In this document: positions 24,248 to 53,887 of the stretch, one piece after another
How the letters are laid out: every line of letters starts with the position of its first letter
Position numbering within the stretch: the first letter of the stretch is position 1
Source: Agathobaculum butyriciproducens
GTDB taxonomy: Bacteria; Bacillota; Clostridia; Oscillospirales; Butyricicoccaceae
Assembly (NCBI GenBank): GCA_003096535.1
Contig: QEKJ01000001.1
Span: forward strand, 248,001 to 312,000
Direction of reading: 5' to 3'
DNA: 64,000 bases
Notes under the pieces: generated by a model
Databases searched by the model: none
Told to the model about the DNA's origin: nothing
Seen by the model: the letters and a program-made list of their open reading frames with translations, nothing else
Translations under genes and position numbers: made by a program

Positions 24248-24304
24248 ATCTATATCTCCTCGCGGCTTCATGCCGTCGACAGTTTTGCTCTATACTCGTG
24301 TACT

Positions 24305-24651: not shown

Positions 24652-26343
24652 TCAAGGTTTCTTCGACAGCAGGCAGACCGTCTCGACAGTTGTTTCAGTT
24701 TCCAAGGGAAGTTCTTTCACTTCCTCACCATCAACAGGCACAGGAAAATTGAATACGATCTTCTTTATCCAGCTTCCGTCTTTCCTTTTCTCCGGGAACA
24801 TCTCAATTCGCTCGATAAAGGCCTTCATAAACTCCTTCTGCTCCGCTTCCGTTGCGGAATGGTAGACTTCATCAAATGCCAGCAACAAGCGATAGATATT
24901 GTCTCCGGAAATCTTCTCCTGCTGGATGCTGCGGATCTGACTTTGCAATTCGCCAATCTGAACTTCGATTTCCTCTATGGTGTCATACTGCTCATCATAG
25001 CGGCGCTGCAAGTCCAAAATCTTTCTGTCATAGTGGGCATCATTGATGTCCAAGGTATCCATCTGACGCTCCAAGCGGCTTTTCGTTCCAAAGGCTTGCT
25101 TTAGCCGCCCTTGTAGGACAGCAATCTGCCGTTCCATATCTTCTGTATCAACTGCTGTTCCGATTTTCGCCTGAATCGCTTCTACAAACCGTGGATTGTT
25201 GACCATAGCGGAGATAACCTTCGCCACAAATTTGTTGATTTCCGTCTGCTCGATATTCAGACGGAAACTGCACTCATGCCCGGTAGGTGTTACCGTATTT
25301 TTGCAGTAGTAATAATACCGTGTTTTCTTGTCCTTGCTGTGCGCCTTGGCGATATTGCCGTACATACTCTTTCCGCAGCATGGGCATTTCAAGATACCGG
25401 ACAGGATGTGTGCGTGGTCTGGATTGTTAACCTTTTCCCGCTTAAAAGAATTGATCTTGCGCTTTTCCTGTGCCAGATACCAATCCTCTTCGGAAATGAT
25501 AGCTTCGTGTTGTCCTTCATAAACCGGGAACTCCGACTGCTCAACCACGTGCATCTCGTTTCTTGTACCCTGTTTCTTTTCTGTTCTTCGTCTGCCGTAA
25601 GCAATCTTTCCCATATAAACAGGATTGTACAATACATTTTTCACAAAATCTCTTGAAAATCCCGGAATGGTATTATTCTGTCTTAGTTTCTTAGTATAAC
25701 CATTGCGGTTCAGATATTTTGCAACTCCTGCAACACCCTCATTAGTGTGAATGTAGCGGTCATAAATGACACGAATTACTTCCACTTCATCCTCTGCAAT
25801 GACAAGGTTTCCATTTTCCAGTTTGTATCCATATGGAGCGAAACCGCCGTTCCATTTGCCCTCACGAGCCTTTTGCTCACGTCCTGCCATTGTCTGTGTG
25901 CGGATATTTTCTCGCTCAATCTCTGCCACCGCAGACAGCACAGAGATCATCAGCTTTCCTGCATCCTTGGAGCTGTCAATGCCATCCTCCACGCAGATCA
26001 GATTGACACCGAAATCCTGCATGAGTTGCAAAGAATTCAGAACGTCCGCTGCATTTCTGCCAAATCGGGACAGCTTAAAGACCAACACATAAGAAACATC
26101 ATCTTTGCCGTCCTGGATGTCATTCAGCATCCGTTGAAACTCCTGCCGCCCTTGAATGTTCTTTCCGGAAAAGCCCTCGTCAGAATACTCCCCGGCAACG
26201 ATCATATCCTCGTATGCCGCATACTTCCGCAGCTTGTCACGCTGGGCATCCAAGCTGTATCCGTCAACCTGCATCGAGGTGGACACTCTTGTATAAAGAT
26301 AGCATTTAAGTTGTTTCTTTTTCAGAATCTCCACCTCCCTCAT
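24652..26343 (-). CDS. Large serine recombinase; C-terminus supplied by host rlmD
   Basis: 563 residues. The resolvase N-terminal domain has the catalytic serine in YTRVSTSMQ (near residue 20) and the GFSGKN and LSRFGRNAADV motifs. A recombinase domain, a zinc ribbon (CPCCGKSMYG...YYYCKN) and a coiled coil (about 400-490) follow. It would catalyse integration and excision of the 14.67-kb element. The last 7 residues (CLLSKKP) lie beyond the crossover core and are host rlmD sequence read in frame. ATG 26343 has AAGG 5 nt upstream. It overlaps the HTH gene by 38 bp. Confidence 0.93.
   Translation of the reverse strand: MREVEILKKKQLKCYLYTRVSTSMQVDGYSLDAQRDKLRKYAAYEDMIVAGEYSDEGFSGKNIQGRQEFQRMLNDIQDGKDDVSYVLVFKLSRFGRNAADVLNSLQLMQDFGVNLICVEDGIDSSKDAGKLMISVLSAVAEIERENIRTQTMAGREQKAREGKWNGGFAPYGYKLENGNLVIAEDEVEVIRVIYDRYIHTNEGVAGVAKYLNRNGYTKKLRQNNTIPGFSRDFVKNVLYNPVYMGKIAYGRRRTEKKQGTRNEMHVVEQSEFPVYEGQHEAIISEEDWYLAQEKRKINSFKREKVNNPDHAHILSGILKCPCCGKSMYGNIAKAHSKDKKTRYYYYCKNTVTPTGHECSFRLNIEQTEINKFVAKVISAMVNNPRFVEAIQAKIGTAVDTEDMERQIAVLQGRLKQAFGTKSRLERQMDTLDINDAHYDRKILDLQRRYDEQYDTIEEIEVQIGELQSQIRSIQQEKISGDNIYRLLLAFDEVYHSATEAEQKEFMKAFIERIEMFPEKRKDGSWIKKIVFNFPVPVDGEEVKELPLETETTVETVCLLSKKP
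24677..24684. other. attL core (ACCGTCTC)
   Basis: 8-bp identity with the other end. The flanks also resemble each other (both encode Val-Glu-Thr-Val followed by Leu-Leu-Ser-Lys). The host side is 24652-24676. The exact 2-bp crossover cannot be fixed from sequence. Confidence 0.8.
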
Positions 26344-26536
26344 TCCTTCCTTTTACCATAAGTCCCTCGTTGCGGATATAATACTCCAAAAGCCACAGCA
26401 CATAATCCGGTGCATGGCGGTTGTCCAATTCCCATTCAGTCATAGTCCGGTAAGGAATATGGACGAGCTTGCAAAAATCTTTCCGATTCAGTCCTGTGCT
26501 TTCACGCAACTTTATAATTCTGTTTTTACAATCCAT
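26306..26536 (-). CDS. Small helix-turn-helix protein
   Basis: 76 residues from ATG 26536 (GGAG 9 nt upstream). RIIKLRESTGLNRKDFCKLV and IPYRTMTEWELDNR form an Xre-like helix-turn-helix. It lies directly upstream of, and overlaps, the recombinase gene. A perfect 13-bp inverted repeat brackets its promoter. It is therefore a likely autorepressor that also controls recombinase expression, or possibly a directionality factor. The longer ORF start lies upstream of the promoter and is not used. Confidence 0.8.
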   Translation of the reverse strand: MDCKNRIIKLRESTGLNRKDFCKLVHIPYRTMTEWELDNRHAPDYVLWLLEYYIRNEGLMVKGRNEGGGDSEKETT

Positions 26537-26563
26537 CCGTCTTTTCTCCACAAAAGCAAAAAA

Positions 26564-26614
26564 TACACGTTGCGTAATCATTATAGCATAGCCATAGCGA
26601 ATACGCAACGTGTA
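26564..26614 (-). promoter_or_regulatory. Promoter bracketed by 13-bp inverted repeat
   Basis: TACACGTTGCGTA (26564-26576) and TACGCAACGTGTA (26602-26614) are perfect complements 25 bp apart. On the minus strand TTGCGT inside the distal arm and TATAAT (26580-26585) form a promoter with a 17-bp spacer, so one arm covers the -35 and the other the start site. Confidence 0.8.
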
Positions 26615-26625
26615 AATTGCAAATT

Positions 26626-26811
26626 TTATGCAGCCTTATCCGTCAGAAGCTGCGCTTGATTACTTTCCTCGGAATGCTCCACTCCCTGCGGTGCGTCCTG
26701 TTCCAATTTATCCAAAACCTGATGTCCATATTTCTGGAGCATCTGGCTCATAACATCCACACAGCGGTCAAATGCCGCATTATATTTCGCTTCCTCATAA
26801 TATTTCTTCAA
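26626..26811 (-). CDS. Small protein of unknown function, mob operon
   Basis: 61 residues from TTG 26811, supported by GGAGGAAT about 8 nt upstream. Acidic, Lys/Glu-rich and helical (KKYYEEAKYNAAFDRCVDVM). I do not recognise a named family. It lies 15 nt downstream of the relaxase gene and is probably co-translated. Similar short ORFs accompany Mob_Pre genes in gut elements (from memory, unverified). Confidence 0.6.
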   Translation of the reverse strand: MKKYYEEAKYNAAFDRCVDVMSQMLQKYGHQVLDKLEQDAPQGVEHSEESNQAQLLTDKAA

Positions 26812-26826
26812 TAGGCGATTCCTCCA

Positions 26827-28116
26827 TCAAAGTTCCATATCCTGTCCACGCTTCCGGGCAGGGTGTTCGTGTTCCTGTGTTTGCTTTCCTCTGATGAGGA
26901 TAGAATTGATAAAAGCCCGAACCTTTTCGGATGCGATTTCCAGTGCATCCAGAAAGGGTTGGGCTTTCTGTTTGAGTTCCATATATTTTTCGTTTACCGC
27001 TTCATACCGCTGCTTCCAGATGGAAACCGTCTTTTCTGCGGAAGCCAGTTTTTCTTTCAGACGCTTGTTGTCAGCATTGGCGATAATGCCATTGACCGCA
27101 TAGCGTTTGAGTGTGTCGCATTCATCCGGTGTCAGCGTGATATTGTTTCCGAATGTGGCTTTTTTGCCCATTACTTCAATGTCCTGCACTGTCAGCGCAA
27201 TGGTCTTTGCCGCCTTGGTTTCCTTTTGCAAAGATTCCAGTTTCTTTTTCTGTTTTGCTGTGGCAGCTTTGGCATCCTCCAAATTCTGTTCTGCCTGTGC
27301 CACCTGCCCGGTCACAGCTTCCAGCCGCTGCTGTTCTGCCTGCACCTTGAACTGGGTCACAGTCAGATGTTCCTCGGTGCTTCCACGTTCTCCACGCTCC
27401 ACATCGGTATAACCGGCGTTTCGCATGAAATTGAAAAAGTCATCCTGCAACACACTGTAGGATGACTTCAAAATCTTTTTCCCTTTTGCGTTGAGCATGG
27501 GATTTCCGTCCTCGCCAAGCACCGGCTTGGACTCCCATTTCTTACTGCGGCTGACCTGTGTGATGACCTCCTTAACGGTTCCCCGGAGGGCTTCATCCTT
27601 GCATCGCTTCGACCAAAGGATCTGCTTTTCCACCACCGGGATATAAACCACATGAAGGTGGTAGTGGTACACATCTTCGCCCAAAGCTTCGGACATTGCT
27701 CGGTTGCGCTCATCGGCGTGCATCACAGCAGAGAGGATATACTGCTCACCACCTACGATCTCCGCAGCAGCTTTGTAGGCATCGGCATAAAACTGTTTCG
27801 CAAATTCATAGCCGCCATGATTGTAGAAATAAGCGGAATTCACATCAAATACCAACTCACCGTATTTGACGGCATCCGGTTTCAGACCTCTGGTGGAGAT
27901 CACGCCGTCTTGTTCCATCTGCTCAAACATTTTTACATAATCGTCCGTGGGTGCTTTGAAATGGACGTTCAGAGAAGTGCGTTCCGGCACGATGTCCTGA
28001 TTGCTGTAGCTGTCCTTTTCACGCTCATTGTGTTCCTGTACCTTCGCCACATCAGCCGGTGTTTCCAAGTCCTGATTTCTGGCTACGGTACGGTCTATTC
28101 CATCATTTCTTGCCAT
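26827..28116 (-). CDS. mob: Mob_Pre-family relaxase (plasmid mobilization/recombination)
   Basis: 429 residues. The N-terminal relaxase domain carries the histidine cluster HYHLHVVYIP (around residue 155), with an upstream NVHF segment typical of MobV/Mob_Pre proteins. A coiled-coil C-terminal half (about 270-400) follows. It should nick oriT on the minus strand and pilot transfer when a conjugative helper is present. The best oriT candidate lies 60-90 bp upstream (28176-28203), the same geometry as in pMV158-type plasmids. ATG 28116 follows AAAGGAAAAA. Confidence 0.88.
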   Translation of the reverse strand: MARNDGIDRTVARNQDLETPADVAKVQEHNEREKDSYSNQDIVPERTSLNVHFKAPTDDYVKMFEQMEQDGVISTRGLKPDAVKYGELVFDVNSAYFYNHGGYEFAKQFYADAYKAAAEIVGGEQYILSAVMHADERNRAMSEALGEDVYHYHLHVVYIPVVEKQILWSKRCKDEALRGTVKEVITQVSRSKKWESKPVLGEDGNPMLNAKGKKILKSSYSVLQDDFFNFMRNAGYTDVERGERGSTEEHLTVTQFKVQAEQQRLEAVTGQVAQAEQNLEDAKAATAKQKKKLESLQKETKAAKTIALTVQDIEVMGKKATFGNNITLTPDECDTLKRYAVNGIIANADNKRLKEKLASAEKTVSIWKQRYEAVNEKYMELKQKAQPFLDALEIASEKVRAFINSILIRGKQTQEHEHPARKRGQDMEL

Positions 28117-28493
28117 TGGATTTTTCCTTTCTTTGAGATTTGCAACAGCGGAAGGCTGGAGAACGGCACTTTTTCAAAGTGTAATAACCCACTATGACAC
28201 TTTCATCCATACTGGCTGCAAAGTGCCGTGGGCTCTCCGAGGGCTCTCCCGAGGGGGAATGCGGTCACTGCGGTGACCTCTGCTGACCAAGGCGAAAATG
28301 TCTGCGCCTTTTCCCATGGTCAGCCCGTCTGCATGAAGCTGTTCTGTGTCAACTTCCTCTTGCAGCCGGTGTCCACAGACACTTTTTCAAAAGCCTGTGG
28401 ACATAGAAACAGCCCGAACGAGAGGATGTGTGCTGTTTCTATAACAAGCGTTTCACGCTCTTTTGCTGCGTACATACGTACCAGCAATGGGAT
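28117..28493. other. Non-coding mobilization region with oriT-like site
   Basis: 377 bp without a gene. It holds the oriT-like repeat at 28176-28203, GGTCAC/GTGACC near 28265, and GTCCACAG/CTGTGGAC (about 28371-28402) bracketing CACTTTTTCAAAAG. The density of inverted repeats between the replication and relaxase genes is typical of a transfer origin and leader control region. Confidence 0.65.
28176..28203 (-). other. oriT-like inverted repeat for the Mob_Pre relaxase
   Basis: AAAGTGT and ACACTTT arms bracket a 14-bp loop which on the minus strand reads CATAGTGGGTTATT. This resembles the pMV158-family nick region TAGTGTG/TTA. A nick would fall after TAGTGGG. The match to the family motif is from memory, with one base differing. 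Confidence 0.6.
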
Positions 28494-29885
28494 TTACTCG
28501 ACCTGCCGCCATTCCTCCGGAATGTCCTCCGGTACGTACGTACACGGCGAATCTCCGTAAAACCCATTTATATGAGGTCGTGCAATGGCTTCCACTCCCA
28601 TGAATCCCCAAACCCGCCGTCCAGCAGAGTTGGTGATGTTGTTGCAATGCTCCAGATTGAATTTTCTGGCATTGGCAATCATGGCGTCGCTGAAGCTGCG
28701 GGCTTTCAGCGGTGCAAGGGAGTTTTCCTCGCACCACATCCGGTAGATTTCATAGAAATCCTTGGAGCTGATGGACGCATCCGCTTTGCGCCGGATATAT
28801 CCCTCTGATTCCATGAAATCAAAGATATTGTTGTTGTCACGCTTGACCGCTTCCCGATTTTCACGGATGCGGTCACTCTCCGTAAACTTAAAGTTGTTGG
28901 CAACAAGCCGCTGCAAGCCTTCAAATGCCCACAGGAAGATACCCTCGGCTTCAGCTTTCATCTTCTCTGCAAGATCAGGATCATCAGCTCTGTCCACCTG
29001 CTTTTCCTTGGTGGTCAGCACAAGCTGTCTGCGATAAAATCCGTCGCTGCGGTCATACAAGGCTTGCAGATCACCGTTGCTGAATGCCAGCAATCGGGCG
29101 AACATCCAGCCCTGATAACTCTGCTTGCCTTTACGTTCCAAATCCATCTTGCCTTGTGCTGTCACGATGGATTTTACATAGTTGGTCTGGCGCAGAGCTT
29201 CCATCCGCATATCATCATCCACGCACAGGAGAATGTGTTCCAAATCGGCACGGGCGAAGCGGTTTTCAGAAATCTTGCCGATGCTGCCGTCTTTCATATT
29301 CGTGCCGAAGATGGTAGACAGTACCGCACCGATTTGAGATTTACCCTCGCCGCCGTTGCCTTTAATCACCATCATGCGCTGCCCCTTGTTGGAGGGAATC
29401 AGGCAATAGCCGATAAACTCCTGCAAAGTTGGAATGTCCTCGGCGTAAAGCAAACTATCCAGAAAGTTCAGCCAGATCACCGGCGCAGTAGCATCGGGAT
29501 TGTAAGCAACCGGCAAACGGCTCCGCACGATAGCCGGTCTGCCCTCGGTAAATGTGCCGTTCAATAGCAGCGTACCGTTGGACAAATGAATCCGATCCTG
29601 CTCCGGTGGAAAGTCCGGCACTTGCGCTTCCAGTTTCAGCACTTCCAGAATGTTGGTGATCTTCCGGGGGATATTGTTTACGGCACAGAATTTCAGCTTG
29701 TCGTAAATCTCCCCACGCAGAGGAAGATCGTCCGTCACTCGACCATCGGGCGTGAAAAAAGCTCCGTTTGCGAAGATGATCCTGCGCTCTTGCAGAAATT
29801 CTTCACAAAACAGAGCTTCGTTGATGTTCTGCCCGTCAAACCACATGGGCAAGTTCATATCAGGCGTTTTCCGGTTCTTCGCCAT
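28494..29885 (-). CDS. Phage/plasmid primase-helicase, P4 family
   Basis: 463 residues. A D5/P4-type N-terminal part leads to a superfamily 3 helicase core: Walker A GNGGEGKSQIGAVL near residue 200 and a Walker B-like ILLCVDDDM. Such proteins unwind and prime replication of satellite phages and mobilizable islands. It overlaps the CHC2 gene by 26 bp; ATG 29885 has AAGGAGG 9 nt upstream. Together they suggest that the excised circle can replicate. Confidence 0.85.
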   Translation of the reverse strand: MAKNRKTPDMNLPMWFDGQNINEALFCEEFLQERRIIFANGAFFTPDGRVTDDLPLRGEIYDKLKFCAVNNIPRKITNILEVLKLEAQVPDFPPEQDRIHLSNGTLLLNGTFTEGRPAIVRSRLPVAYNPDATAPVIWLNFLDSLLYAEDIPTLQEFIGYCLIPSNKGQRMMVIKGNGGEGKSQIGAVLSTIFGTNMKDGSIGKISENRFARADLEHILLCVDDDMRMEALRQTNYVKSIVTAQGKMDLERKGKQSYQGWMFARLLAFSNGDLQALYDRSDGFYRRQLVLTTKEKQVDRADDPDLAEKMKAEAEGIFLWAFEGLQRLVANNFKFTESDRIRENREAVKRDNNNIFDFMESEGYIRRKADASISSKDFYEIYRMWCEENSLAPLKARSFSDAMIANARKFNLEHCNNITNSAGRRVWGFMGVEAIARPHINGFYGDSPCTYVPEDIPEEWRQVE

Positions 29886-30480
29886 GGTGCGCCACCTCCT
29901 TTTTCTTTTGTGCGGTATACTCTTGCAGAAAAGCAATTTTGCCGTCCTGCATCAGCTTGTCCACCAATGCCACCCGTTCTTCCAGATCACCCACCGTCAG
30001 CACATCTGCCATATATTCGATATGGCAGTGCATCTGGCAGGCTTCCACAAAACGGTCATCCAGAGCATCTTCCGGTGTCTTGGGAGCATAGCGCACTTTC
30101 CAATCTTCCAACAGATGCAAATAATCCGTCAGCACCCGGAAGCACAGCATTTCATCCTCCCGGAACTGACGGATATAGGGACGCTTCGGCTTGACCATAG
30201 CTGCGGCAGTGGGCGGTTTCGGGTCAAGCCCGAAGTCCAAAGCCAGCTTTTGCGCTGCTTCATAACTGCTCAGATTGAACAGCCTTGCCACAAGGTCGAT
30301 CACATCCCCTTTGGCTCCGCAGCCGAAGCAGAAAAAATAGTCCTCATTCAGCTTCAAGCTCGGATGCCTGTCGTTGTGGAACGGGCAGCAAGCCATGCCG
30401 TTGTGGCTCACTTTCAGCCCGTAGTGTTCGGCGGCTTGCTTGACGCTGATTGCCGCCTTGATGGTTTCATAGATTGTCAT
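29860..30480 (-). CDS. CHC2 zinc-finger primase-type protein
   Basis: 206 residues. The zinc finger matches the DnaG N-terminal CHC2 pattern (CCPFHNDRHPS then FFCFGCGAKGD, about residues 31-60). No TOPRIM catalytic domain follows, so it is probably the DNA-binding half of a split primase working with the downstream helicase. ATG 30480 follows GGAGGG. The gene heads the minus-strand replication operon. Confidence 0.85.
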   Translation of the reverse strand: MTIYETIKAAISVKQAAEHYGLKVSHNGMACCPFHNDRHPSLKLNEDYFFCFGCGAKGDVIDLVARLFNLSSYEAAQKLALDFGLDPKPPTAAAMVKPKRPYIRQFREDEMLCFRVLTDYLHLLEDWKVRYAPKTPEDALDDRFVEACQMHCHIEYMADVLTVGDLEERVALVDKLMQDGKIAFLQEYTAQKKKEVAHHGEEPENA

Positions 30481-30574
30481 AGAAAACCCTCCGTTCATAA
30501 TATTCTGGAAAGCACGAAGCACCCGCCGTGATTGGCAGGTGCTTCGCTCCTTCTATTATGGTTATGACGGATTT

Positions 30575-30621
30575 TTCAAAAAACAGGCTAATGACAGGAC
30601 AATCCTGTTTCAAAAAACAGG
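30575..30621. promoter_or_regulatory. Repeated ACAGG motifs in a divergent promoter region
   Basis: TTCAAAAAACAGG occurs at 30575-30587 and again at 30609-30621, exactly 34 bp apart. A perfect inverted repeat ACAGGA-CAA-TCCTGT (30594-30608) lies between them, and a further AAAAAACAGGACA occurs near 30679. This is a candidate operator or iteron-type site between replication genes and cargo. Confidence 0.55.
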
Positions 30622-30702
30622 ACAACTTATCTGAGGACGTAGATTTCTTCACATTTACATGATATAATTAGAAAAATGAAAAAACAGGACAGGAGGGCAA
30701 GC

Positions 30703-31830
30703 ATGAATCAAGAATTGATGACATTGGATTTCTGGCAGGATACGGTCATATATGAGAGCAAAACATTTCCTGTCGGTACGCTTGCCTGTGATGCACTGAA
30801 TGTTCCTGTGAATACCATTGCAAAAATAAACGAGCAATGCGAGAAAATCAATCTGCTGCTTGGAATATTAAACGCCGGACAGGATGCTTCTGCACTCTGT
30901 CCTATTGCAAAGGAAGCTGCTCTGACGATGCTCGATATTCTCAGTCAAACACCGCCGTTCTCCTATATGAATATCTCAAAGCACAGAGAACGGATTGAAA
31001 AAGTCTTTACTGTGGACAATGCGCTGAAATATGTGGAGTTTGCCATAAAAGCCGCAACCAATTCTTTGCAATTTGAAGAAATCCAGAACTTTACCGATGC
31101 GATGATGCTCCAACGCTATACCGCAGTTTTCGGGCATCTGGCATACTCCCTTGGGGAATACCAAACGGCCATGCTTGATTTTGCAGAAAAAACAGACGGC
31201 AACGAAGCAGACCGCACCGCAGAGGGTTTTGCAAAAATGTTCGGCAGCTATTTCCCGCCGGAGTTTTCCATCACGGAAGGCAATACCTGGATGTCTACCC
31301 TGAACAATTCCGTTCAGTATGTATCCGTCATCCGTCCCGGCGAAAAAGTTGCGAAGCTGGTCAAGCGGATGCACTATGTATCCTTTGTAGGGATGTTCCG
31401 GTCTGATCTCTTTGAGGGCCTGTGTGTTGGTCATGCACCAAAGAAATGCAAAATCTGCGGCAAGTGGTTTCTGACCACCAACGCACGGCACACCAAATAC
31501 TGTGGCGGCTATGCACCGGGGGACAAGCTGCACCGCACCTGTCGGCAGATCGGCAACCTGAAAGGCAGAGAACAACGGGAGCTTGCGGACGATCATCCGG
31601 TGAAACAGATTTATGAGAAACGGCTGAACACCATAAACCGCTATGTGAAGCGTGGTACTCTGGACGCTGATCTTGCAGAGGTTATGAAAAAGCTGGCAAA
31701 AGATAAGATGCTCCGGGCATTGAGCAATGTAGCCTATGCCAAGGGAGCTTATGAAAAAGAAATGGACCAGGCGGCTTTGAAAAAGGAAGCAAGTGCAAAA
31801 ATATACAAAGAAAGGGACAAACATGAATAG
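30703..31830 (+). CDS. DUF6076 family protein
   Basis: 375 residues. The only recognisable piece is a C-terminal zinc-finger-like segment, CKICGKWFLTTNARHTKYC, near residue 245-265. I recall this pattern from DUF6076 proteins of gut Firmicutes mobile elements. No enzymatic motif is seen. ATG 30703 follows AGGAGGG at 5 nt; a TATAAT box at 30663-30668 supports a promoter just upstream. It opens the plus-strand cargo cluster and overlaps the next gene by 8 nt. Confidence 0.7.
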   Translation: MNQELMTLDFWQDTVIYESKTFPVGTLACDALNVPVNTIAKINEQCEKINLLLGILNAGQDASALCPIAKEAALTMLDILSQTPPFSYMNISKHRERIEKVFTVDNALKYVEFAIKAATNSLQFEEIQNFTDAMMLQRYTAVFGHLAYSLGEYQTAMLDFAEKTDGNEADRTAEGFAKMFGSYFPPEFSITEGNTWMSTLNNSVQYVSVIRPGEKVAKLVKRMHYVSFVGMFRSDLFEGLCVGHAPKKCKICGKWFLTTNARHTKYCGGYAPGDKLHRTCRQIGNLKGREQRELADDHPVKQIYEKRLNTINRYVKRGTLDADLAEVMKKLAKDKMLRALSNVAYAKGAYEKEMDQAALKKEASAKIYKERDKHE

Positions 31831-32455
31831 AAAAGAACTTAGTCAGAATCATTGGAAATACTACTTAATGCTCGAAAAGCGTTTTGTTGAATCAATAGAG
31901 TTTGTAGAACTACATGAGGACAATTTTGATGCATTTTCTAACGGATATGCCCTCTTAATTCAAGCCATAGGGGCAGAGTTGGATACTGTATTCAAAGAGT
32001 TTTGCGGTTTCAATACAACGGATCGAAAAACGGTTGCAGACTATGCACAGTATATTTTGACCAACACACCGGATATAAAAAATCAAAAAATCAGTGTACA
32101 GGAATACGATATCGAAATACAACCGTTTATGAATTGGGATATTACCCAGCCCGCACAGTCGTTGCAATGGTGGGGAGCATTTACAGATGTCAAGCACAAC
32201 CGCTATGAGCAGTTGAAGCAAGCAAAGCAGGAGAATGTACTAAATATCTTGGGAGCTTTGTATTTGATAGAAATGTTGTACTTGAAGAAAATCACTGATG
32301 GGACAGACGAATTTGATGTGTTTGATGAATCTTCCAACTTGTTTAGTTTGAAAAACTGGACTTCTAAGGCTGTGCCGCTGAGCCAAGCTTTTGCCGTGCT
32401 AAGTGATATGATGGACGACGAAAATAATACTACTAACAAAAAGTTCGATGCATAA
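31823..32455 (+). CDS. Protein of unknown function, all-helical
   Basis: 210 residues. No named family recognised. It appears wholly alpha-helical, with a late helix holding DVKHNRYEQLKQAK and a hydrophobic helix VLNILGALYLIEMLYL. The KHNR placement is faintly reminiscent of HEPN-type proteins, but the RX4-6H motif is not clear, so I do not assign it. It overlaps the DUF6076 gene (ATGAATAG) and is AT-rich. Position in the cargo cluster suggests an accessory role. Confidence 0.6.
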   Translation: MNRKELSQNHWKYYLMLEKRFVESIEFVELHEDNFDAFSNGYALLIQAIGAELDTVFKEFCGFNTTDRKTVADYAQYILTNTPDIKNQKISVQEYDIEIQPFMNWDITQPAQSLQWWGAFTDVKHNRYEQLKQAKQENVLNILGALYLIEMLYLKKITDGTDEFDVFDESSNLFSLKNWTSKAVPLSQAFAVLSDMMDDENNTTNKKFDA

Positions 32456-32502
32456 TTACTGTCGATATTGATAGAGAAAGAACCGAAAGGAGGTGCGCTA
32501 TA

Positions 32503-33672
32503 CTGAGTGATTTTTCATGGGACATGACCGGATACATACCAAAACACGCTGTCAATCCGCACGGTGACGGCATCATTCCTTATGCGGCAGAGCGCATCTT
32601 CCAACTGGAACCGGAGCCTCCAGCGGTGGGCAATCTGAACGAATATATCCTGTCTGCCTTGCAGGAAAAGAATTTGATATATTTCTCATTCTTCCTACAC
32701 CACTACGAGCCGCAGCTTAACAAGCGCATCAAAGACTTTCTCGGTGTGGATGGCGGCGATCTGTATGACACAGACCGATTTATAGATATAAAGCTCTCCT
32801 GCCGGGAGCAAATGCTCCAAAAGCTGATGGACTATGACCTTGCCAAGGGTGCAGAGTATGCTACATACATTTTCCCGTTCATCCGGGATGCTATGCTCCG
32901 TTTTCGCATGGGCGAAGAAAAATGGTCGGTGTCCTCTCTGACCAATTACAAAATGGTGCGGTCAATGGCTTGGCTGTACCACAATACCAAGGATGCGGTC
33001 AACGAATTTTCCAAGAAATACAACTGCGATCTTGCCCTTGCGGAAGAATATCTGAAAGTTGTCCGTGGAATCCGCAATCAGCAGCCATTCTATGTGACAG
33101 ACGAGAACGGCGAGGAAACAGGCGAGGATGTAGCCCTTGACGATAGCTGGAACTATACCGATATCCTCTGGAACGGCATACAGGCAGAAAAGGTGCAGCG
33201 GGCATTTGAGAAACTGAATTACCGGGAACAGACCTTGCTTGAAAAACGGTTAGCAATTTGCATGACCTGTGGGCGTGTCAGCTCATGGAAAGACCGCCCC
33301 ACCTTTGAAGAACTGGCGGTTATGTTTGAGGGCAGTACAGCCAGCGGTGCAGAACGAGCCTACCGAAAAGCAGTGGACAAGTTGACGGAATTGTTGGTTG
33401 CCGAGGGCGCAATCCATGCAGTCCGGCTAAAACAGAAATCCAAGATCAAGCGAAAAAAGAAAATCGCCGCCGCAATCTACGAATATCAGGCAGACTGCGA
33501 CGGCGAATGGGGCGAAATATCATTAGATTTTGAGAACGGCAAGGCAGAGGTCATTTTGCTTGCCGATTGGGATACAGTGAAAACAAACAAATTTGCAAGC
33601 AGAGCAATCGCCTATCTTCTGAACTGTGAGAACGAAAAATTGCCCAAGGAAATAATGGTGGTATTTGAATAA
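32503..33672 (+). CDS. Sigma-factor-like protein of mobile element
   Basis: About 389 residues. YNREQTLLEKRLA-like text (NYREQTLLEKRLAICMTC), then PTFEELAVMFEGSTASGAERAYRKAVDKL, resembles a sigma region 4 helix-turn-helix. An upstream helical stretch (YATYIFPFIRDAMLRFRMG) could be region 2/3. A C-terminal acidic beta part ends the protein. Start: AAAGGAGG (32486-32493) fits a CTG at 32503 (Leu-Ser-Asp-Phe) at 9 nt. The first ATG, 32524, is 30 nt from the RBS. It precedes the response regulator and could activate cargo genes. Confidence 0.65.
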   Translation: MSDFSWDMTGYIPKHAVNPHGDGIIPYAAERIFQLEPEPPAVGNLNEYILSALQEKNLIYFSFFLHHYEPQLNKRIKDFLGVDGGDLYDTDRFIDIKLSCREQMLQKLMDYDLAKGAEYATYIFPFIRDAMLRFRMGEEKWSVSSLTNYKMVRSMAWLYHNTKDAVNEFSKKYNCDLALAEEYLKVVRGIRNQQPFYVTDENGEETGEDVALDDSWNYTDILWNGIQAEKVQRAFEKLNYREQTLLEKRLAICMTCGRVSSWKDRPTFEELAVMFEGSTASGAERAYRKAVDKLTELLVAEGAIHAVRLKQKSKIKRKKKIAAAIYEYQADCDGEWGEISLDFENGKAEVILLADWDTVKTNKFASRAIAYLLNCENEKLPKEIMVVFE

Positions 33673-33688
33673 CGAGGGAGTGAGATAT

Positions 33689-34366
33689 ATGGAGCAATTA
33701 CTGATTGTTGAAGATGATATCGGCTTGAATCAAGGCTTATGCAAAGCGCTGAAAGCAGATGACCGCCAGATTATATCCTGCCATGATCTAAAAGCGGCAA
33801 GAGAGCAATTGCTTTGCGGCGGTGTATCCCTGATCCTGTTGGATATCAATCTGCCGGATGGCAGTGGGCTTGAGCTGCTCCGGGAGGTCAAGGAAAACAT
33901 ACCCGGAGTTCCTGTTATTCTGCTGACTGCCAACGACACCGATCTGGACATCGTAGACGGACTGGAGAGAGGTGCTGATGATTACATTACCAAGCCCTTT
34001 TCTCTTTCGGTTTTGCGGGCAAGGGTGAATACCCAACTGCGAAAGCAAGCGTCAAGCCATAAAAATGCGCCGATCCATATGGATCTATTTCACTTTGACT
34101 TTGAGGCTATGACCTTTTATGTGGGAGATTCAAAAGTGGAATTGAGTAAAACAGAACAAAAATTACTGCGCCTGCTTGTTGAAAACCGAGGCCGAACCAT
34201 GACCCGTGGAGACCTTGTCGACCGGGTCTGGACAGATGGCGCAGAATATGTGGATGAAAATGCTTTGTCTGTTACGATCAAGCGTCTGAGGGATAAGCTT
34301 GGCGCACAGAAATACATTAAAACCGTCTATGGAATCGGTTATAGCTGGGTGACAAAAGATGAATAA
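33689..34366 (+). CDS. OmpR-family response regulator
   Basis: 225 residues. Receiver domain: acidic pair EDD, phospho-acceptor Asp in LILLDINLPDG (about 51) and Lys in ITKPFS (about 100). The C-terminal winged helix includes LSKTEQKLLRLL and VDENALSVTIKRLR. It acts with the kinase that overlaps it by 8 nt and very likely controls the ABC transporter downstream. Start 33689 follows GAGGGAG; the ORF start at 33665 (TTG) lies inside the previous gene. Confidence 0.92.
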   Translation: MEQLLIVEDDIGLNQGLCKALKADDRQIISCHDLKAAREQLLCGGVSLILLDINLPDGSGLELLREVKENIPGVPVILLTANDTDLDIVDGLERGADDYITKPFSLSVLRARVNTQLRKQASSHKNAPIHMDLFHFDFEAMTFYVGDSKVELSKTEQKLLRLLVENRGRTMTRGDLVDRVWTDGAEYVDENALSVTIKRLRDKLGAQKYIKTVYGIGYSWVTKDE

Positions 34367-35258
34367 AACCGGCATTGTGATCATACTGCTGTGTTTTCTG
34401 GCGGCGGCAGCTGTTGTGTTATGGGAGCGGAGAAAGGCCAGAAAAACGATGGAAGAAATCGAAAGAATGCTGGACGCTGCCATGACCGGCTCCTTTTCTG
34501 AAACCAATTTTGATGAAAGCCAGCTATCTGCATTGGAAACGAAGTTTGCGCACTATCTTTCCGCCGCAGAAGCATCTTCTCAAAACATAGCGCAGGAAAA
34601 AGACAAAATCAAAACCTTGATTGCGGACATCTCCCACCAGACAAAAACGCCGATTGCAAACCTGCTGTTATACAGCGAGCTTTTGATGGAGGAAACTCTG
34701 CCTGCATCGGCGAAGGCAAATGTGGAGGCGCTGTACAAACAATCGGAAAAGCTGCGATTTCTGATCGATTCTCTCGTAAAGCTTTCCAGACTGGAAAACG
34801 GGATCATTTCACTCTTCCCTCAGCAAGCAGCGCTGCAGCCGCTGCTTGAAAGCGTAGTAGAACAATATGCCGCCAAGGCTTCTGAAAAAGGATTGTCTTT
34901 GCAAATGCAGGATACAGATGCTTTTGCTGTATTCGACTTCAAATGGACAGCGGAAGCGCTGGCTAATATCGTAGACAACGCCATCAAATATACAGAGCAT
35001 GGCACCATTACTATTTCTGCCGTAAGCTATGAAATGTTTGCAAGGATCGATATATCGGATACCGGTTTAGGCATACCGGAAACTGAGCAAGCGAAGATAT
35101 TTGCTCGCTTTTACCGCTCAAATAGTGTGCAGAAACAAGAAGGGGTCGGCATTGGCTTATACCTTGCCCGACAGATCATATCCGGCGAGGGCGGTTATAT
35201 CAAGGTTGCTTCCGTTCCGGGAAAAGGAAGTACGTTTTCCATATTTCTGCCGAAATAA
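34359..35258 (+). CDS. Sensor histidine kinase with minimal sensor
   Basis: 299 residues. A single N-terminal membrane segment (IVIILLCFLAAAAVVLW) is followed by a dimerization domain with the phospho-acceptor His in ISHQTKTPIANLLL, and a catalytic domain with N box NIVDNAIKYTEHG and G boxes DTGLGIP and GVGIGLYLA. No extracellular sensing domain exists, so signal input probably comes through a partner, most likely the ABC transporter encoded next, as in peptide-resistance modules. Confidence 0.9.
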   Translation: MNKTGIVIILLCFLAAAAVVLWERRKARKTMEEIERMLDAAMTGSFSETNFDESQLSALETKFAHYLSAAEASSQNIAQEKDKIKTLIADISHQTKTPIANLLLYSELLMEETLPASAKANVEALYKQSEKLRFLIDSLVKLSRLENGIISLFPQQAALQPLLESVVEQYAAKASEKGLSLQMQDTDAFAVFDFKWTAEALANIVDNAIKYTEHGTITISAVSYEMFARIDISDTGLGIPETEQAKIFARFYRSNSVQKQEGVGIGLYLARQIISGEGGYIKVASVPGKGSTFSIFLPK

Positions 35259-35327
35259 CAACAATTCTATCAAAACTGTTAGATTTCATTTTTCGCCGGA
35301 AAGAATGTGGAAAGATTCCTATGCGAT

Positions 35328-35377
35328 AATCTGTATGTATCAAAGGATCATTTCCTTTCATACATACAGATTTTTTC
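35328..35377 (+). terminator. Terminator/attenuator hairpin before the ABC genes
   Basis: AATCTGTATGTAT pairs with ATACATACAGATT, with AAAGGA/TCCTTT pairing inside, followed by six Ts. It lies between the kinase and the ABC ATPase gene, 17 nt before the latter's start codon. Confidence 0.8.
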
Positions 35378-35393
35378 ATGGAGGTACTCATTT

Positions 35394-36065
35394 ATGGAAG
35401 TTTTACAGGCAAAAAACCTGAAAAAGATTTATGGCTCCGGCAATAACGCAGTTCATGCGTTGGATGGAGTTGATTTAAGTGTAAAGAAGGGCGAATTTGT
35501 TGCAATTGTCGGCACATCCGGCTCCGGCAAATCCACGCTGCTGCACATGCTGGGCGGGCTGGATCGCCCTACAAGCGGCACGGTTATGGTGGACGGACAG
35601 GATATTTTCTCCCTGAAGGAGGAAGCCCTGACCATCTTCCGCCGCAGGAAAATCGGCTTTGTGTTCCAAGCATATAATCTTGTTCCGGTGCTGAATGTGT
35701 ATGAAAATATCGTTCTACCCATTGAGCTGGACGGTGGCAAGGTCAATAAGGATTTCGTACAGCAGATCGTGCAGACCCTTGGGCTGGATGAGCGTCTGGA
35801 TGCCCTGCCCAATCAGCTCTCCGGCGGTCAGCAGCAGCGTGTGGCAATCGCCCGTGCGCTGGCGGCAGCACCCGCTATCATTCTGGCAGATGAACCCACC
35901 GGCAATCTGGATTCCAAAACCAGCCAGGATGTTCTGAGTCTGCTGAAGGTGAGCAGTCAAAAATTTGCCCAGACCATCGTGATGATCACTCACAACGAAG
36001 AAATTGCGCAGATGGCAGACCGCATTATCCGTATCGAAGATGGTCGGATCGTCTCCCAGAACTAA
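35394..36065 (+). CDS. ABC transporter ATP-binding protein (MacB/LolD type)
   Basis: 223 residues. Walker [17 protein letters not shown] loop, signature [15 protein letters not shown], Walker [13 protein letters not shown] and H-loop MITHNEE are all present. The [11 protein letters not shown] and [13 protein letters not shown] text is typical of ATPases that pair with FtsX-type permeases. ATG 35394 follows GGAGGT at 8 nt. Upstream ORF extension runs through a terminator hairpin and is rejected. It partners with the permease 15 nt downstream. Confidence 0.93.
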
Positions 36066-36080
36066 CGGGAGGTGGTTACG

Positions 36081-38723
36081 ATGAATGTCAAAAACAGAAA
36101 ATGTATTCGAAAGCTCAGCTTAAAATCTCTTTATGCGAACCGTCGCCGCAATCTGATCGCTATTTTTGCCATTGCGCTGACAACGCTGCTATTTACGTCC
36201 ATGTTCACCATTGTCTTGTCGTTGAACGCCAGTTATGAAACCTACCAGTTTCGGCAGGTAGGCGGCTATGCGCATGGCACCTTTAAGGATGTTTCCCCCG
36301 AGCAGGCGGAACGTATCGCTGCTCACCCAAAGGTGAAGGCTGCGGGGGCACGGAAGGTAATCGGTATCACTGCGGAGGGGGTCTTTGCCAAAACCCCGGC
36401 AGAGATCAGCTACATGGATGCCAACTGCACTAAATGGAGCTATGCAACCCCTACTACCGGACGGATGCCCGAAAGCGGCAAAGAGGTAGCCATGGATACG
36501 GCAGCGTTGCAACTGCTTGGCGTAACGCCGGAACTGGGCACCGAGGTCACGGTTTCCTATTCCATTACGGACAAGGATCAAACCGCCTTTACTGTAACAG
36601 ATGCCTTTACGCTGGTGGGCTATTGGGACTATGATGAACTAATGCCTGTTCATTACATCAACATCAGCCGTGATTACGCAGATGACATCGAAGCGCAGGC
36701 AGTGAAAACAGGTTTACAGCCTTTCCGCACTGACCTGAATGTCATGATGGCCTCCGGCACAAACATTCAAGGGCAGATGGAGCAGGTGGATACCGATCTT
36801 GGTTACACATGGGACAGCTATACCGATCCCAACAGCGTCCGGATTGGCGTCAATTGGGGATATACCTCATCCCAGCTGGAGTCACAGCTCGATCCAGAGC
36901 TGATGGTCGCCATAGCAGCTTTTTTGCTGCTGGTGATTTTCACTGGGTATCTTATCATCTATAACATTTTCCAGATCTCTGTTGCGGGAGATATCCGGTT
37001 TTACGGACTTCTGAAAACCATTGGCACAACGCCCCGGCAGCTCAAACGTATCATTCGCCAGCAGGCACTTCTGCTTTGTCTGATCGGCATTCCGGCAGGG
37101 CTGCTGCTGGGCTACGGCATCGGCGCTGTTCTGGTACCTGTTGTCTTGCGCTCCACCCAGTTGGAGGTGGGCATCACTACCATCAGCACCTCGCCTGTGA
37201 TCTTTGTTGGCTCCGTGCTGTTTGCTCTGCTGACAGTGCTCTTGTCCTGCTCCAAGCCCGGAAAAATGGCAGCCAAGGTTTCTCCGGTGGAGGCTACCAA
37301 ATATACGGATGTGATGCAGACCAAGAAAAAACGGCGCAGCATCCGAGGAGCAAAGCTCCATCAGATGGCCTTTGCCAATCTGGGACGAAACAAGAAAAAG
37401 ACGGTACTGGTGGTGTTGTCTCTGGCACTGTCGGTGACACTGTTCAATGCGCTGTGTGCCTTTGTGGGCGGCTTCAGCATGGAGAAGTATGTATCCTCCA
37501 TGACCTGCGCCGATTTTATCGTCAGCACGCCCGACTATTTCCGTTACAATCCGACAGATGAATTCATCACGCCAGAACAAATCGAAGAGATCGCAGCAAA
37601 CACAAAGGCCAGTCTTTCCGGCACGGGATATGCTGTGCGAAAACCCGCCTACCTGTGGATGACGGAGGATGCTTTGCGACAGGACTATGCAAGGTACGAA
37701 AGTGCCGAGCAGTTGGACAGCCATATGAGCCGCATGGAGCACCGGGGCAATATGGTGATGGGAGATACCAGAATCGAGGCTCTGGATAACAGTCTGTTTG
37801 ACAAGCTGCAAGTGCTCGACGGAGATATTTCTCCTATGCTGGAGCCGGACAATAACGCTATTGCCATTGCGGTTTCCTTAGATGACTACGGTAATCTGCT
37901 CAATCCTGAATACTACCCCAAGGTGGGAGACACGATCACCGCTACCTATGCGGATGATGTGAAATATATCGACAGCCGCACCGGAGAACTCCGCACCGAA
38001 GATACACCGGAGGGGTACATGAAAAAATTGTATGGAGCCAGAGATGTAGAGTACACGGTCTGCGCCTTGGTAAATCTTCCGAATTCCATGAGTTATCGTT
38101 ATAGCGGCGTTGGCTATGATGCAGTTTTGTCTGTGGATACCGCACAGCGGGACAGCGGTGGTGCGGCCATTCCGATGCTCTACCTGTTCGACACAGCGGA
38201 CGAAGTTGACGAGGCCGAAGCAGAGCAGTATCTATCGAAGCTCACTGCCGGTGAGTTTTCGCCCTTGATGTATGAAAGCAAGGCCACGGCTCGCTCTGAA
38301 TTTGCTCAGTTCCGGCAGATGTTTCTTCTGATAGGTGGTATCCTCTGTGCTATCATCGGGCTGGTGGGACTCTTAAATTTCTTCAACGCCATGATGACCG
38401 GTATTCTTTCCCGCCGCCGTGAATTTGCTGTGCTTCAGGCTGTAGGAATGACGAACCGGCAACTCAAAACCATGCTGATCTACGAGGGGTTGTTTTACGC
38501 AATGTCTTCTGTAGCGGCGGCCTTTATTCTGTCGCTGGCGGTGGGACCTCTTGCGGGAAAAATGCTGGGCAGTATGTTCTGGTTCTTTGAGTATCGATTC
38601 ACCATTCTGCCTGTCCTGCTGACAATTCCGGTATTTCTTCTGCTGGGGTGGCTGATTCCTTGCATGATGTATGACAACGCAGCGAAATGCAGTGTTGTAG
38701 AGCAATTAAGGGATGCTCAATAA
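36081..38723 (+). CDS. FtsX-type ABC transporter permease
   Basis: 880 residues. About eight membrane segments: one near residue 25-50, a block of three at about 270-390, one at about 440, and three at the C-terminus. They enclose two extracellular domains (about 50-270 and 465-750). Two FtsX cores are seen (ISVAGDIRFYGLLKTIGTT and LSRRREFAVLQAVGMT). With its ATPase it may expel or sense antimicrobial peptides. It is not the ten-segment BceB layout. ATG 36081 follows GGGAGGTGG. Confidence 0.88.
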   Translation: MNVKNRKCIRKLSLKSLYANRRRNLIAIFAIALTTLLFTSMFTIVLSLNASYETYQFRQVGGYAHGTFKDVSPEQAERIAAHPKVKAAGARKVIGITAEGVFAKTPAEISYMDANCTKWSYATPTTGRMPESGKEVAMDTAALQLLGVTPELGTEVTVSYSITDKDQTAFTVTDAFTLVGYWDYDELMPVHYINISRDYADDIEAQAVKTGLQPFRTDLNVMMASGTNIQGQMEQVDTDLGYTWDSYTDPNSVRIGVNWGYTSSQLESQLDPELMVAIAAFLLLVIFTGYLIIYNIFQISVAGDIRFYGLLKTIGTTPRQLKRIIRQQALLLCLIGIPAGLLLGYGIGAVLVPVVLRSTQLEVGITTISTSPVIFVGSVLFALLTVLLSCSKPGKMAAKVSPVEATKYTDVMQTKKKRRSIRGAKLHQMAFANLGRNKKKTVLVVLSLALSVTLFNALCAFVGGFSMEKYVSSMTCADFIVSTPDYFRYNPTDEFITPEQIEEIAANTKASLSGTGYAVRKPAYLWMTEDALRQDYARYESAEQLDSHMSRMEHRGNMVMGDTRIEALDNSLFDKLQVLDGDISPMLEPDNNAIAIAVSLDDYGNLLNPEYYPKVGDTITATYADDVKYIDSRTGELRTEDTPEGYMKKLYGARDVEYTVCALVNLPNSMSYRYSGVGYDAVLSVDTAQRDSGGAAIPMLYLFDTADEVDEAEAEQYLSKLTAGEFSPLMYESKATARSEFAQFRQMFLLIGGILCAIIGLVGLLNFFNAMMTGILSRRREFAVLQAVGMTNRQLKTMLIYEGLFYAMSSVAAAFILSLAVGPLAGKMLGSMFWFFEYRFTILPVLLTIPVFLLLGWLIPCMMYDNAAKCSVVEQLRDAQ

Positions 38724-38740
38724 CTGTTAGGCAAAAAACG

Positions 38741-38769
38741 GCCCTCTGCCAATGAAAAAGGCAGAGGGC
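38741..38769. terminator. Bidirectional terminator at end of cargo
   Basis: GCCCTCTGCC/GGCAGAGGGC hairpin between the convergent permease and DUF6061 genes. The T run is strongest on the minus strand, where it ends the rlmD-tail-DUF6061 transcript. Confidence 0.85.
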
Positions 38770-38775
38770 TGAGTT

Positions 38776-39021
38776 TTAATCTAAGGGTTTACATTCAGTT
38801 ACAGTTTTTAGATAAATTTCGGGGTTTCCGTTCAAAACAAGGTCTGCATATCCAATCGGGTCATTGTAGATTAGATAGTCCAGCTCTGACCGCTGATACA
38901 TATTGTCAGCAACCTCATTCTCCACGGCTATTGTATCAATAGCAATCATACTGCCATCTAAGAATTTCAGTTCCACACAGGCATTATCCATGTTGAACTC
39001 ACAAGAAATCAACCTATCCAT
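38776..39021 (-). CDS. DUF6061 family small protein
   Basis: 81 residues. The text SCEFNMDNACVELKFLDGSM and AIDTIAVENEVADNMYQRSE is what I recall for DUF6061, a small protein family found on gut Firmicutes elements; function unknown. GGAGG precedes the ATG at 39021 by 6 nt. It lies 24 nt downstream of the rlmD fusion stop on the same strand. In the integrated state it is probably driven from the host rlmD promoter. Confidence 0.75.
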   Translation of the reverse strand: MDRLISCEFNMDNACVELKFLDGSMIAIDTIAVENEVADNMYQRSELDYLIYNDPIGYADLVLNGNPEIYLKTVTECKPLD

Positions 39022-39045
39022 AAGAAACCTCCACTTTGCTGGATG

Positions 39046-40680
39046 TTAGATCATCCCAAAATATTTGAATGCTTCTCGGATTGCTTTCTCTTTTTCCGGC
39101 GGACACTGGGGCTGTCTGGAATTCTCGGACTTCGGCAGATTATAGTTCTTACCAACCCCAATCCCACATTTTCGTTTAATCTGTGAGATATAGAGGTTGG
39201 ACACCTTTAACCCGGTATGCTCCAACACATACTCCTTGATCTGCGGATAGGTTGCCCCATCCTGAAATTCGGACATATCCATATCTTCCAAAGAGAACTC
39301 AACCCGAATCTTTTTCGAGTCGACCTCTCCCTTGGAAAGCAAGACAACCGTCTCCACATGAAAAGTTCTCGGGAACAGATCGAACGCCTGTGCCTTCTCG
39401 AGTGTGTAGCCTGCGCCGCACAGCTCCGCCACATCGCGCGCAAGCGTTGCCGGGTCACACGAAACGTACACGACCTTAGGCGGCTGCATTTTAAGAATCG
39501 CGTCGCGTGCAGTCGCGTCCAGACCCTTGCGCGGCGGATCGACCACCAGCACATCAATACCGCGCTTGGCCAGCCGCTGCGCTGCCTGACCCGCATCCGC
39601 ACAGAAGAACTCTGTGTTTTCCATGCCGTTGCGGAGCGCGTTGCGCTTGGCGTTTTCGATGGCCTCCGGCACGATTTCCACGCCAATGGCAGTCTTTGCG
39701 TGCTCGGCCAGCGCCAGCGTGATCGTACCCGCACCGCAGTAGAGGTCAAGCACGGTCTCCTCGCCGGTCAGACCGGCGTAGTCCACCGCACACGCATACA
39801 GACGCTCGGCCTGCGCGTGATTGACCTGATAAAACGCCTCGGGCGAGAGCAAAAACGTGTGCCCGCACAGGCGGTCCTCCAGCATCGGCTCACCCCAGAG
39901 AACATCCGTCCGGTTACCCAGAATCACGTTGTCGTCGCGCTGGTTGTGGTTGAGCAGAATACCCGTCAGCGACGGCGCTGCCGCGCGCAGACGCTCGACC
40001 AGCACATCTAGTTTGGGCATTTTCTTCGTCGCGGAAATAAGCGTCAGCTGGCTTTCGCCGCTTTTTTCGCCCACACGAACGTAAATATGCCGAATCGTAC
40101 CGCGTTTTTTCTCATAATCGTACGGCATGACCGAAAATTCCGTCATCCATTCACGCACCACGGCGGCAATCTTGTCCGCCGTCTCCGACTGGATGAGGCA
40201 TTTCTCCACCGGCACAATGTCGTGGCTGCGCGGACGGTAAAAGCCGGTAACGATGCTGCCTTCTTTGTCCCGTCCGACCGGATACTGCGCCTTGTTACGG
40301 TAATGCTCAGTGGTCGGCGCACCCGTGATGCCGAGCAGCTTTGCGCCGTCCTGACCGCCAATGCGCGTCAGCGCATCACGCACCTTTTTCTCCTTCGCAC
40401 GCAGTTCTTCCCCGTAGGTAATGTGCTGATAACAGCAGCCGCCGCACTTATCCGCCACCGGACATGCAGGCTCAATGCGCTGTCCCGACGGCACGATAAT
40501 CTTCTCTACCCTGCCGAACGCCACATTTTTCGTCACCTTGACAATGCGGACATCACACTGATCGCCAACTGCCGTACGCGGCACAAATACCGCCCGGCCT
40601 TCGATCTTCGCAAACCCCGTACCGTCCGCTGTGTAATCCGTAATCTGACAACGATAAACCTTGTTCTTCTGTAAATCCAT
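39046..40680 (-). CDS. rlmD: 23S rRNA uracil-C5 methyltransferase with element-encoded tail
   Basis: 544 residues. A TRAM domain comes first, then Fe-S cysteines (CPVADKCGGCC, about 73-83), SAM motif DLYCGAGTITLAL and catalytic Cys in VSCDPATLARD. All belong to RlmD/RumA, which makes m5U in 23S rRNA. The host part ends at Val-Glu-Thr-Val (about residue 444), after which about 100 residues come from the mobile element: a basic region with HTH-like YPQIKEYVLEHTGLKVSNLY and a KSENSRQPQCPPEKEKAIRE end. The element re-encodes VVLLSK, so the catalytic domain stays intact. Confidence 0.92.
   Translation of the reverse strand: MDLQKNKVYRCQITDYTADGTGFAKIEGRAVFVPRTAVGDQCDVRIVKVTKNVAFGRVEKIIVPSGQRIEPACPVADKCGGCCYQHITYGEELRAKEKKVRDALTRIGGQDGAKLLGITGAPTTEHYRNKAQYPVGRDKEGSIVTGFYRPRSHDIVPVEKCLIQSETADKIAAVVREWMTEFSVMPYDYEKKRGTIRHIYVRVGEKSGESQLTLISATKKMPKLDVLVERLRAAAPSLTGILLNHNQRDDNVILGNRTDVLWGEPMLEDRLCGHTFLLSPEAFYQVNHAQAERLYACAVDYAGLTGEETVLDLYCGAGTITLALAEHAKTAIGVEIVPEAIENAKRNALRNGMENTEFFCADAGQAAQRLAKRGIDVLVVDPPRKGLDATARDAILKMQPPKVVYVSCDPATLARDVAELCGAGYTLEKAQAFDLFPRTFHVETVVLLSKGEVDSKKIRVEFSLEDMDMSEFQDGATYPQIKEYVLEHTGLKVSNLYISQIKRKCGIGVGKNYNLPKSENSRQPQCPPEKEKAIREAFKYFGMI
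39347..39354. other. attR core (ACCGTCTC)
   Basis: Matches the left core exactly. Host rlmD coding sequence lies at higher coordinates, and element sequence encoding the new RlmD tail at lower coordinates. Confidence 0.8.
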
Positions 40681-53286: not shown

Positions 53287-53318
53287 TTTTCTTCGAATGG
53301 GTTTGTCGGAATTGATAT

Positions 53319-53883: not shown

Positions 53884-53887
53884 AAAT

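Follow-up and report, generated by a model that had tools for sequence, protein, structure and literature searches.

What looks like a mobilizable element of 14,670 bp has inserted within the final codons of rlmD, the gene for the 23S rRNA m5U1939 methyltransferase, in a 64,000-nucleotide stretch of the Agathobaculum butyriciproducens genome (contig QEKJ01000001.1, positions 248,001 to 312,000; hereafter the window, in whose positions all coordinates are given). The element carries an attachment core inside the gene of its own large serine recombinase. To judge from the sequences, integration has almost certainly exchanged the 3′ ends of the two genes in frame in both directions, leaving the recombinase without an extra C-terminal domain and RlmD with that domain fused to it.

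The integration site and the exchange of 3′ ends

The core is the 8 bp ACCGTCTC, read as GAGACGGT on the minus strand, and sequence matching finds two copies of it in the window. One lies in the recombinase gene (24677–24684), in the same phase as in relatives; the other lies in rlmD (39347–39354), where the phase was likewise compared in relatives. The element thus spans 24677–39346. Each of the two minus-strand genes reads V-E-T-V at the core, because the 1334 nt of rlmD and the 1667 nt of the recombinase gene both leave 2 modulo 3; an earlier note on this DNA had proposed this shared phase, and the coordinates bear it out.

The host part of rlmD (39347–40680, minus strand, TIGR00479 over residues 18–443) would, once the element is removed, be rejoined to its displaced 3′ end (24652–24676, minus strand). 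The 1334 and 25 nt make 453 codons including the stop, with a predicted end HVETVCLLSKKP. In the circle, 24677–26343 (1667 nt) would join 39046–39346 (301 nt) to make 656 codons including the stop, a recombinase of 655 residues. These lengths come from coordinate arithmetic, and natural relatives serve as the joined sequences. In the window, the recombinase open reading frame (ORF; 24652–26343, minus strand; Pfam Resolvase, Recombinase and zinc ribbon) has 563 residues and ends TTVETVCLLSKKP, its last seven residues CLLSKKP and its stop being host-derived. RlmD and the foreign tail form one ORF of 544 residues. The tail (39046–39346, minus strand) restores VLLSK to RlmD and adds a recombinase-family C-terminal domain of about 93 residues; a scan of the RlmD–tail ORF found no Pfam match in the tail. 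The reciprocal exchange claimed in the earlier note, between a predicted 655-residue circular and a 563-residue integrated form, is supported, and a homologue of the long form exists in nature: L210 has 658 residues and is 98.7% identical to the window recombinase over the recombinase part.

Recombinase ends in relatives

Alignment of the RlmD and recombinase C-termini over relatives, which the earlier note had suggested, shows the ends trading in frame, host-specific short ends on one side and full tails on the other. Ten recombinases, counting the window's own, are at least 95% identical to that of the window. A short RlmD-like end, different in each, is found on eight of them (CLLSKKP, VLMSRK, CLLSRKDIQS, VLMSKKDK, VLLQRENL, ILMSKVNPGK, VLMSKVQK and CLFSRTNL), whereas the other two continue in frame through a full tail. 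These two are L229 (658 residues, the same place as L210) and L230 (667 residues). L210 is the junction of a window-type element with another element, and its tail is only distantly similar to the window's. When 66 different recombinase ORFs were compared, 47 ended within 20 residues past the core, 9 had the full tail in frame, 3 were cut by the contig and 7 ended otherwise; the short ends are RlmD-like by eye in 45 of the 47 (not in L278 and L280).

One element was found in both states. Over 8458 bp, recombinase included, loci L246 and L263 are 99.8% identical. The recombinase has 559 residues and ends VETVVGLQRKDT in one of them; in the other it has 662 residues with the full tail, beyond which a second element begins with its own genes. 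In nine genomes the two ends of an element could be seen together on a single contig and the same strand, RlmD with tail coming first, then the element, then the recombinase with its short end, over 14–23 kb. The tail and recombinase ends were given to a script as 17 pairs, of which two were unreadable and one (G005) was read at a wrongly chosen motif; 11 of the 15 readable pairs share an identical run in phase across the E-T codons, and three (G166, G284, G409) share only 4–5 bases elsewhere near them. Of 20 genomes selected because they encode a window-type recombinase, 19 contain the tail. An odd case is the metagenome contig of L233, which bears, 5.8 kb apart, two recombinases that share 96% identity with that of the window but differ in their short ends, something that a plain tandem array would not produce.

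RlmD ends with and without the tail

RlmD proteins of the genus that lack the tail end VETVCLLQR, VETIVLLQRETL, VETVVLLSQ, VETVALLCR and similar. Since they end alike, the predicted CLLSKKP, which resembles the ends in element-free genomes of the genus, is the kind of end to be expected. Streptococcus suis phage records supply an empty and a filled site: RlmD ends HHVECVALLVKA in YS387 (empty) and reads HHVETVALLSK followed by the tail in YS162 (filled). This pair indicates that the element carries ETVVLLSK and rebuilds the RlmD end. An element of this kind can thus rebuild, rather than break, the end of the gene it enters, and the RlmD probably stays active after fusion.

A family search found the tail in 26 of 87 genomes. 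The 30 loci retrieved have it in frame after RlmD in 19 (two of them cut by the contig), after the recombinase in 3, and elsewhere or broken in 8. Named genome contigs, the best 80 of at least 595, hold 82 tail places, 67 after RlmD, 4 after the recombinase and 11 other (two being contig edges). Among the other places are short ORFs preceded by a stop, apparently secondary sites.

Several single loci deserve mention. In L019, L028 and L021 a single TAG breaks the family tail, and in two of these, from different genomes, the affected codon is identical (LYIS*VKRK). Two tails, L072:6001–6303 on plasmid pAPRE01 and L115:10001–10306 in a metagenome-assembled genome (MAG), follow only a short RlmD-like end (VDMFPITIGV and GLIDMFPITVHV), by which mobile DNA perhaps imitates the attachment site in rlmD; in pAPRE01 a window-type recombinase (50% identical) lies downstream of that tail. 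At L129:10001–10306 an RlmD-like protein carries the tail in a MAG whose title is Kiritimatiellaeota; unless the contig is mis-binned, the tail crosses phyla here.

The tail is a recombinase domain

The tail is also an integral C-terminal domain in a clade of large serine recombinases that lack the rlmD core. Viral contigs gave 81 tail places, near-copies included. Recombinases account for 66 of them, of which 15 have the core and 51 lack it; a single place follows RlmD, and 14 are of other kinds. All 13 sampled core-less recombinases form one clade (support 100/100), nested among core-bearing rows in a midpoint-rooted tree of 50 chosen rows with several long branches. In six viral contigs (L161, L168, L170, L172, L173, L192) tail-bearing serine recombinases stand in adjacent pairs, the genes nearly abutting or overlapping, the VETV core being absent in the upstream member and present in the downstream one.

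The median ratio of nonsynonymous to synonymous substitution rates (dN/dS) is 0.054 for RlmD-fused tails (55 sequences, 833 non-independent pairs; the pooled pN/pS is 0.151), 0.076 for recombinase-fused tails with the core (10 pairs) and 0.13 for core-less recombinases (227 pairs). By these ratios the tail is under purifying selection. Because it is both integral to the core-less clade and under such selection, integration removes a real domain from the recombinase, which strengthens the earlier claim that the enzyme loses its C-terminal piece.

In the predicted model of the 658-residue L210 protein (mean predicted local distance difference test score, pLDDT, 79), the core residues 553–556 fall in a low-confidence stretch, 550–562, between confident parts, and the modelled tail helices span 579–654, beyond this linker. 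An AlphaFold model of the tail (pLDDT 72, predicted template modelling score, pTM, 0.52) places helices at 36–47, 53–62 and 86–98. Pfam gave only sub-threshold matches to the tail (WH_Rok, E 0.017, for the L210 tail), and PHROGs gave one family of unknown function (phrog_27283, E 1.3e-5). The tail has the look of a helix-turn-helix, seen by eye only, and DNA binding by it therefore remains a guess.

A second lineage at the same site

A distant recombinase lineage, about 25% identical, also uses the HVETV codons of rlmD, one frame off. The shift is +1 in all 18 readable of 22 loci (14 of 18 examined and 4 of 4 further ones; 4 unreadable); loci L072, L073, L304–L321 and L392–L395 were assigned to the lineage. 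In the circular record of plasmid pAPRE01 such a recombinase and a tail are joined one frame off, and pAPRE01 and IMGVR 2602041676 are the places where a tail stands beside a frame-shifted recombinase. Since this lineage reads the site one frame off, exchange in frame is characteristic of the lineage to which the window's recombinase belongs.

Proposed mechanism and its alternatives

We propose that the attachment site of the element, attP, lies inside the recombinase's own gene, in the linker between the standard body and the extra C-terminal domain, and that the host site, attB, consists of the codons of the last strand of RlmD (HVETV). The sequences show that integration trades the 3′ ends in frame, giving a recombinase without the extra domain that borrows the host stop, and an RlmD with a rebuilt end and the domain. 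Excision, or a tandem neighbour, gives the long recombinase back. In the long, circle-encoded enzyme the domain may act in cis, helping or directing attP × attB integration, in which case integration would demote the enzyme; the short enzyme, with all standard domains kept, could still excise together with a directionality factor. To this explanation we give a probability of about 0.6. The cis role taken alone falls slightly short of an even chance, and it is favoured by the presence of the domain in cis in other recombinases and by the precedent of the Int protein of phage Mx8. In the excerpts of the cited papers that we draw on here and below, Mx8 has attP inside int and integration swaps a C-terminus of about 112 residues for 13 residues (PMC4701971, PMC6070905), and Int with the swapped end is reported to have lower activity (PMC4701971) or a changed specificity (PMC6070905). 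By analogy, the two recombinase forms most likely differ in activity or site preference. The C-terminal exchange is plausible as the direction switch that the earlier note had suggested.

Several observations weigh against this mechanism. The Pfam recombinase domains and the predicted coiled coil are all present after integration. Tandem arrays encode the full-length recombinase while chromosomal, so the link between integration state and enzyme form is not strict. The second lineage lives at rlmD one frame off, and an in-frame domain exchange is thus unneeded there. The long L210 model has a pTM of only 0.36, and the fold of the tail is unmatched, with nothing better than E 3.0 in the PDB or E 0.9 in BFVD. 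Finally, L072:3420 and L171, two tails out of frame with the adjoining recombinase, differ at first, second and third codon positions 4, 1 and 17 times; a purely cis role does not explain this third-position bias, and the pair hints that the tail is used apart from the recombinase. That none of three genomes with a frame-shifted recombinase has the tail, against 19 of the 20 with a window-type one, speaks for the mechanism, but this search came with a warning that it shows nothing unless there is a positive control. A set of six type II tails (8 pairs, median 0.058) was discarded as evidence, because only L072:3420 and L171 in it adjoin such a recombinase; L072:6001 belongs with a window-type one.

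One alternative, which we hold to be unlikely, is that the domain acts in trans once integrated: borne on RlmD and expressed from the host rlmD promoter, it would regulate excision or element genes, and the swap would be a by-product. The strong constraint on RlmD-fused tails agrees with this, as does the third-position pattern beside a frame-shifted recombinase, with which no fusion is possible. A partner may be the DUF6061 gene (PF19537; 38776–39021, minus strand, 81 residues), just inside the element and in the direction of rlmD and the tail. Also in line with a trans role, 28 of the 47 RlmD–tail genome loci that extend at least 600 nt past the tail have DUF6061 inside that distance, and in most of these it starts about 28 nt past the tail stop. 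It is possibly a companion of the tail, and its expression would be coupled to rlmD in the integrated state but to the recombinase in the circular one. However, the third-position case is a single pair, the other tails of the six-tail set having no known partner type or a window-type recombinase, and core-less recombinases keep the domain in cis. A purely RlmD-borne role, suggested by the tails that adjoin a frame-shifted recombinase in pAPRE01 and IMGVR 2602041676, is weakened by the absence of the tail from the three frame-shifted-recombinase genomes.

About as unlikely is the view that the exchange follows passively from the position of attP within the recombinase gene, with both forms working alike and the tail needing only to stay an open frame. 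The short form does have all standard domains, a second lineage uses the site without an in-frame domain, and full-length forms are found integrated in tandem arrays. Yet a dN/dS near 0.05 over RlmD-fused tails and the integral copy in the core-less clade argue for function, and the properties of Mx8 Int change upon its C-terminal swap (PMC4701971, PMC6070905). A chance core match, mis-assembly or mis-annotation has a negligible probability. The core is just 8 bp and the assembly alone was used, but the arrangement recurs on single contigs of nine genomes, and many contigs of IMG/VR have it too.

The proposed cis control and the trans action might also be combined. The domain would then be a recombination-control module toggled by its own crossover, in cis in the circle and in trans on a host-driven RlmD once integrated. 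This is an improbable extension; if true, the element would read its integration state via a host enzyme and relay it to the recombinase, possibly with DUF6061.

Relation to known systems

The rumA-targeting serine-integrase integrative and conjugative elements (ICEs) of streptococci come closest. A reciprocal 3′-end exchange was published for them in 2016 by Ambroset et al., who said that it alters the reading frame and suggested a functional difference (PMC4701971). As in those ICEs, a single large serine integrase uses a site in rumA (rlmD), one direct repeat lies in the integrase gene, and the 3′ ends are exchanged reciprocally with altered C-termini. The insertion with a repeat in the integrase gene and the reciprocal exchange were both found here. 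The change of frame was not, as the window has the same phase in both genes and the ends of its relatives are in frame. Unlike the streptococcal ICEs as described, the lineage of the window keeps the frame in both directions, and what it exchanges includes a defined domain. It is the frame-shifted lineage that fits the frame remark of 2016 for the integrase, while RlmD and tail are in frame in S. suis YS162.

Mx8 resembles the window element in having attP in the integrase gene and two forms that differ in activity or specificity; it differs in using the tyrosine integrase of a phage and, as described, in giving no domain to a host protein. The archaeal "suicidal" SSV-type integrases also have att within the integrase gene, with chimeric genes between related elements, but these are tyrosine recombinases split by integration into inactive halves (PMC8371274), whereas the window enzyme is a serine recombinase whose standard body remains whole. 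In mycobacteriophage BPs attP lies in a coding gene, and integration shortens the C-terminus and changes behaviour, but in this integration-dependent immunity the gene is the repressor, not the recombinase (PMC4557955). Integrative mobilizable elements at rumA are likewise small, with a relaxase and a serine recombinase, but gene disruption is described for them (PMC5357655, PMC5704250), whereas the RlmD in the window keeps a full frame with a rebuilt end. The CTn7 and CTn5-like elements of Clostridioides difficile excise from the site equivalent to rumA and were transferred in the laboratory (PMC3158075); insertion at rlmD is therefore not a dead end, though the recombinase lineage may differ.

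A search of an open-licence library turned up no description of the tail as a domain of recombinases. The 3′-end exchange itself is already known; as far as that library shows, three things look new, namely a lineage that exchanges in frame, the identity of the tail as a conserved domain of recombinases, and natural pairs in the two states. Such a natural pair of enzymes with and without one domain offers a route to what makes serine integrases one-way, and the uncharacterized C-terminal domain may serve integrases used in genome engineering. The exchange also accounts for the foreign-tailed RlmD proteins and the host-specific recombinase ends in gut Bacillota genomes.

Genes of the element and its surroundings

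The recombinase belongs to the large serine recombinases by its Resolvase, Recombinase and zinc-ribbon domains (PF00239, PF07508 and PF13408, above cut-off, at residues 15–164, 184–296 and 313–377) and by a predicted coiled coil, seen in the L210 model as long helices at 401–429 and 438–488. Foldseek matches serine integrase structures (best E 1.8e-22). In the window genome (2.8 Mb in 57 contigs) there is one tail, and the eleven other recombinase matches are each at most 33% identical.

A small ORF of 100 residues (26306–26608, minus strand) overlaps the recombinase start; it is helix-turn-helix-like by eye only and has no Pfam or NCBIfam match. It is followed by a MobV-type relaxase (Mob_Pre by Pfam; NF041497 below its cut-off; 26827–28116, minus strand) and, at 28494–30522 on the minus strand, by a P4/D5-type primase-helicase and a CHC2 zinc-ribbon protein identified in Pfam and NCBIfam scans. 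The cargo on the plus strand (33665–38723) comprises a PhoB-like response regulator, a sensor kinase, a LolD/MacB-like ABC ATPase and a long permease, all below equivalog cut-offs. No secretion-like part was found among 14 of the larger element or target ORFs, to which the scan was confined. The gene content points to an apparent integrative mobilizable element.

Beside the insertion, an 802-residue ORF (21863–24271, minus strand) appears by eye to be a FeoA–FeoB iron transporter fusion. Six genes for tRNAs (Gly, Arg, His, Gln, Lys, Val) are clustered at 53213–53963.

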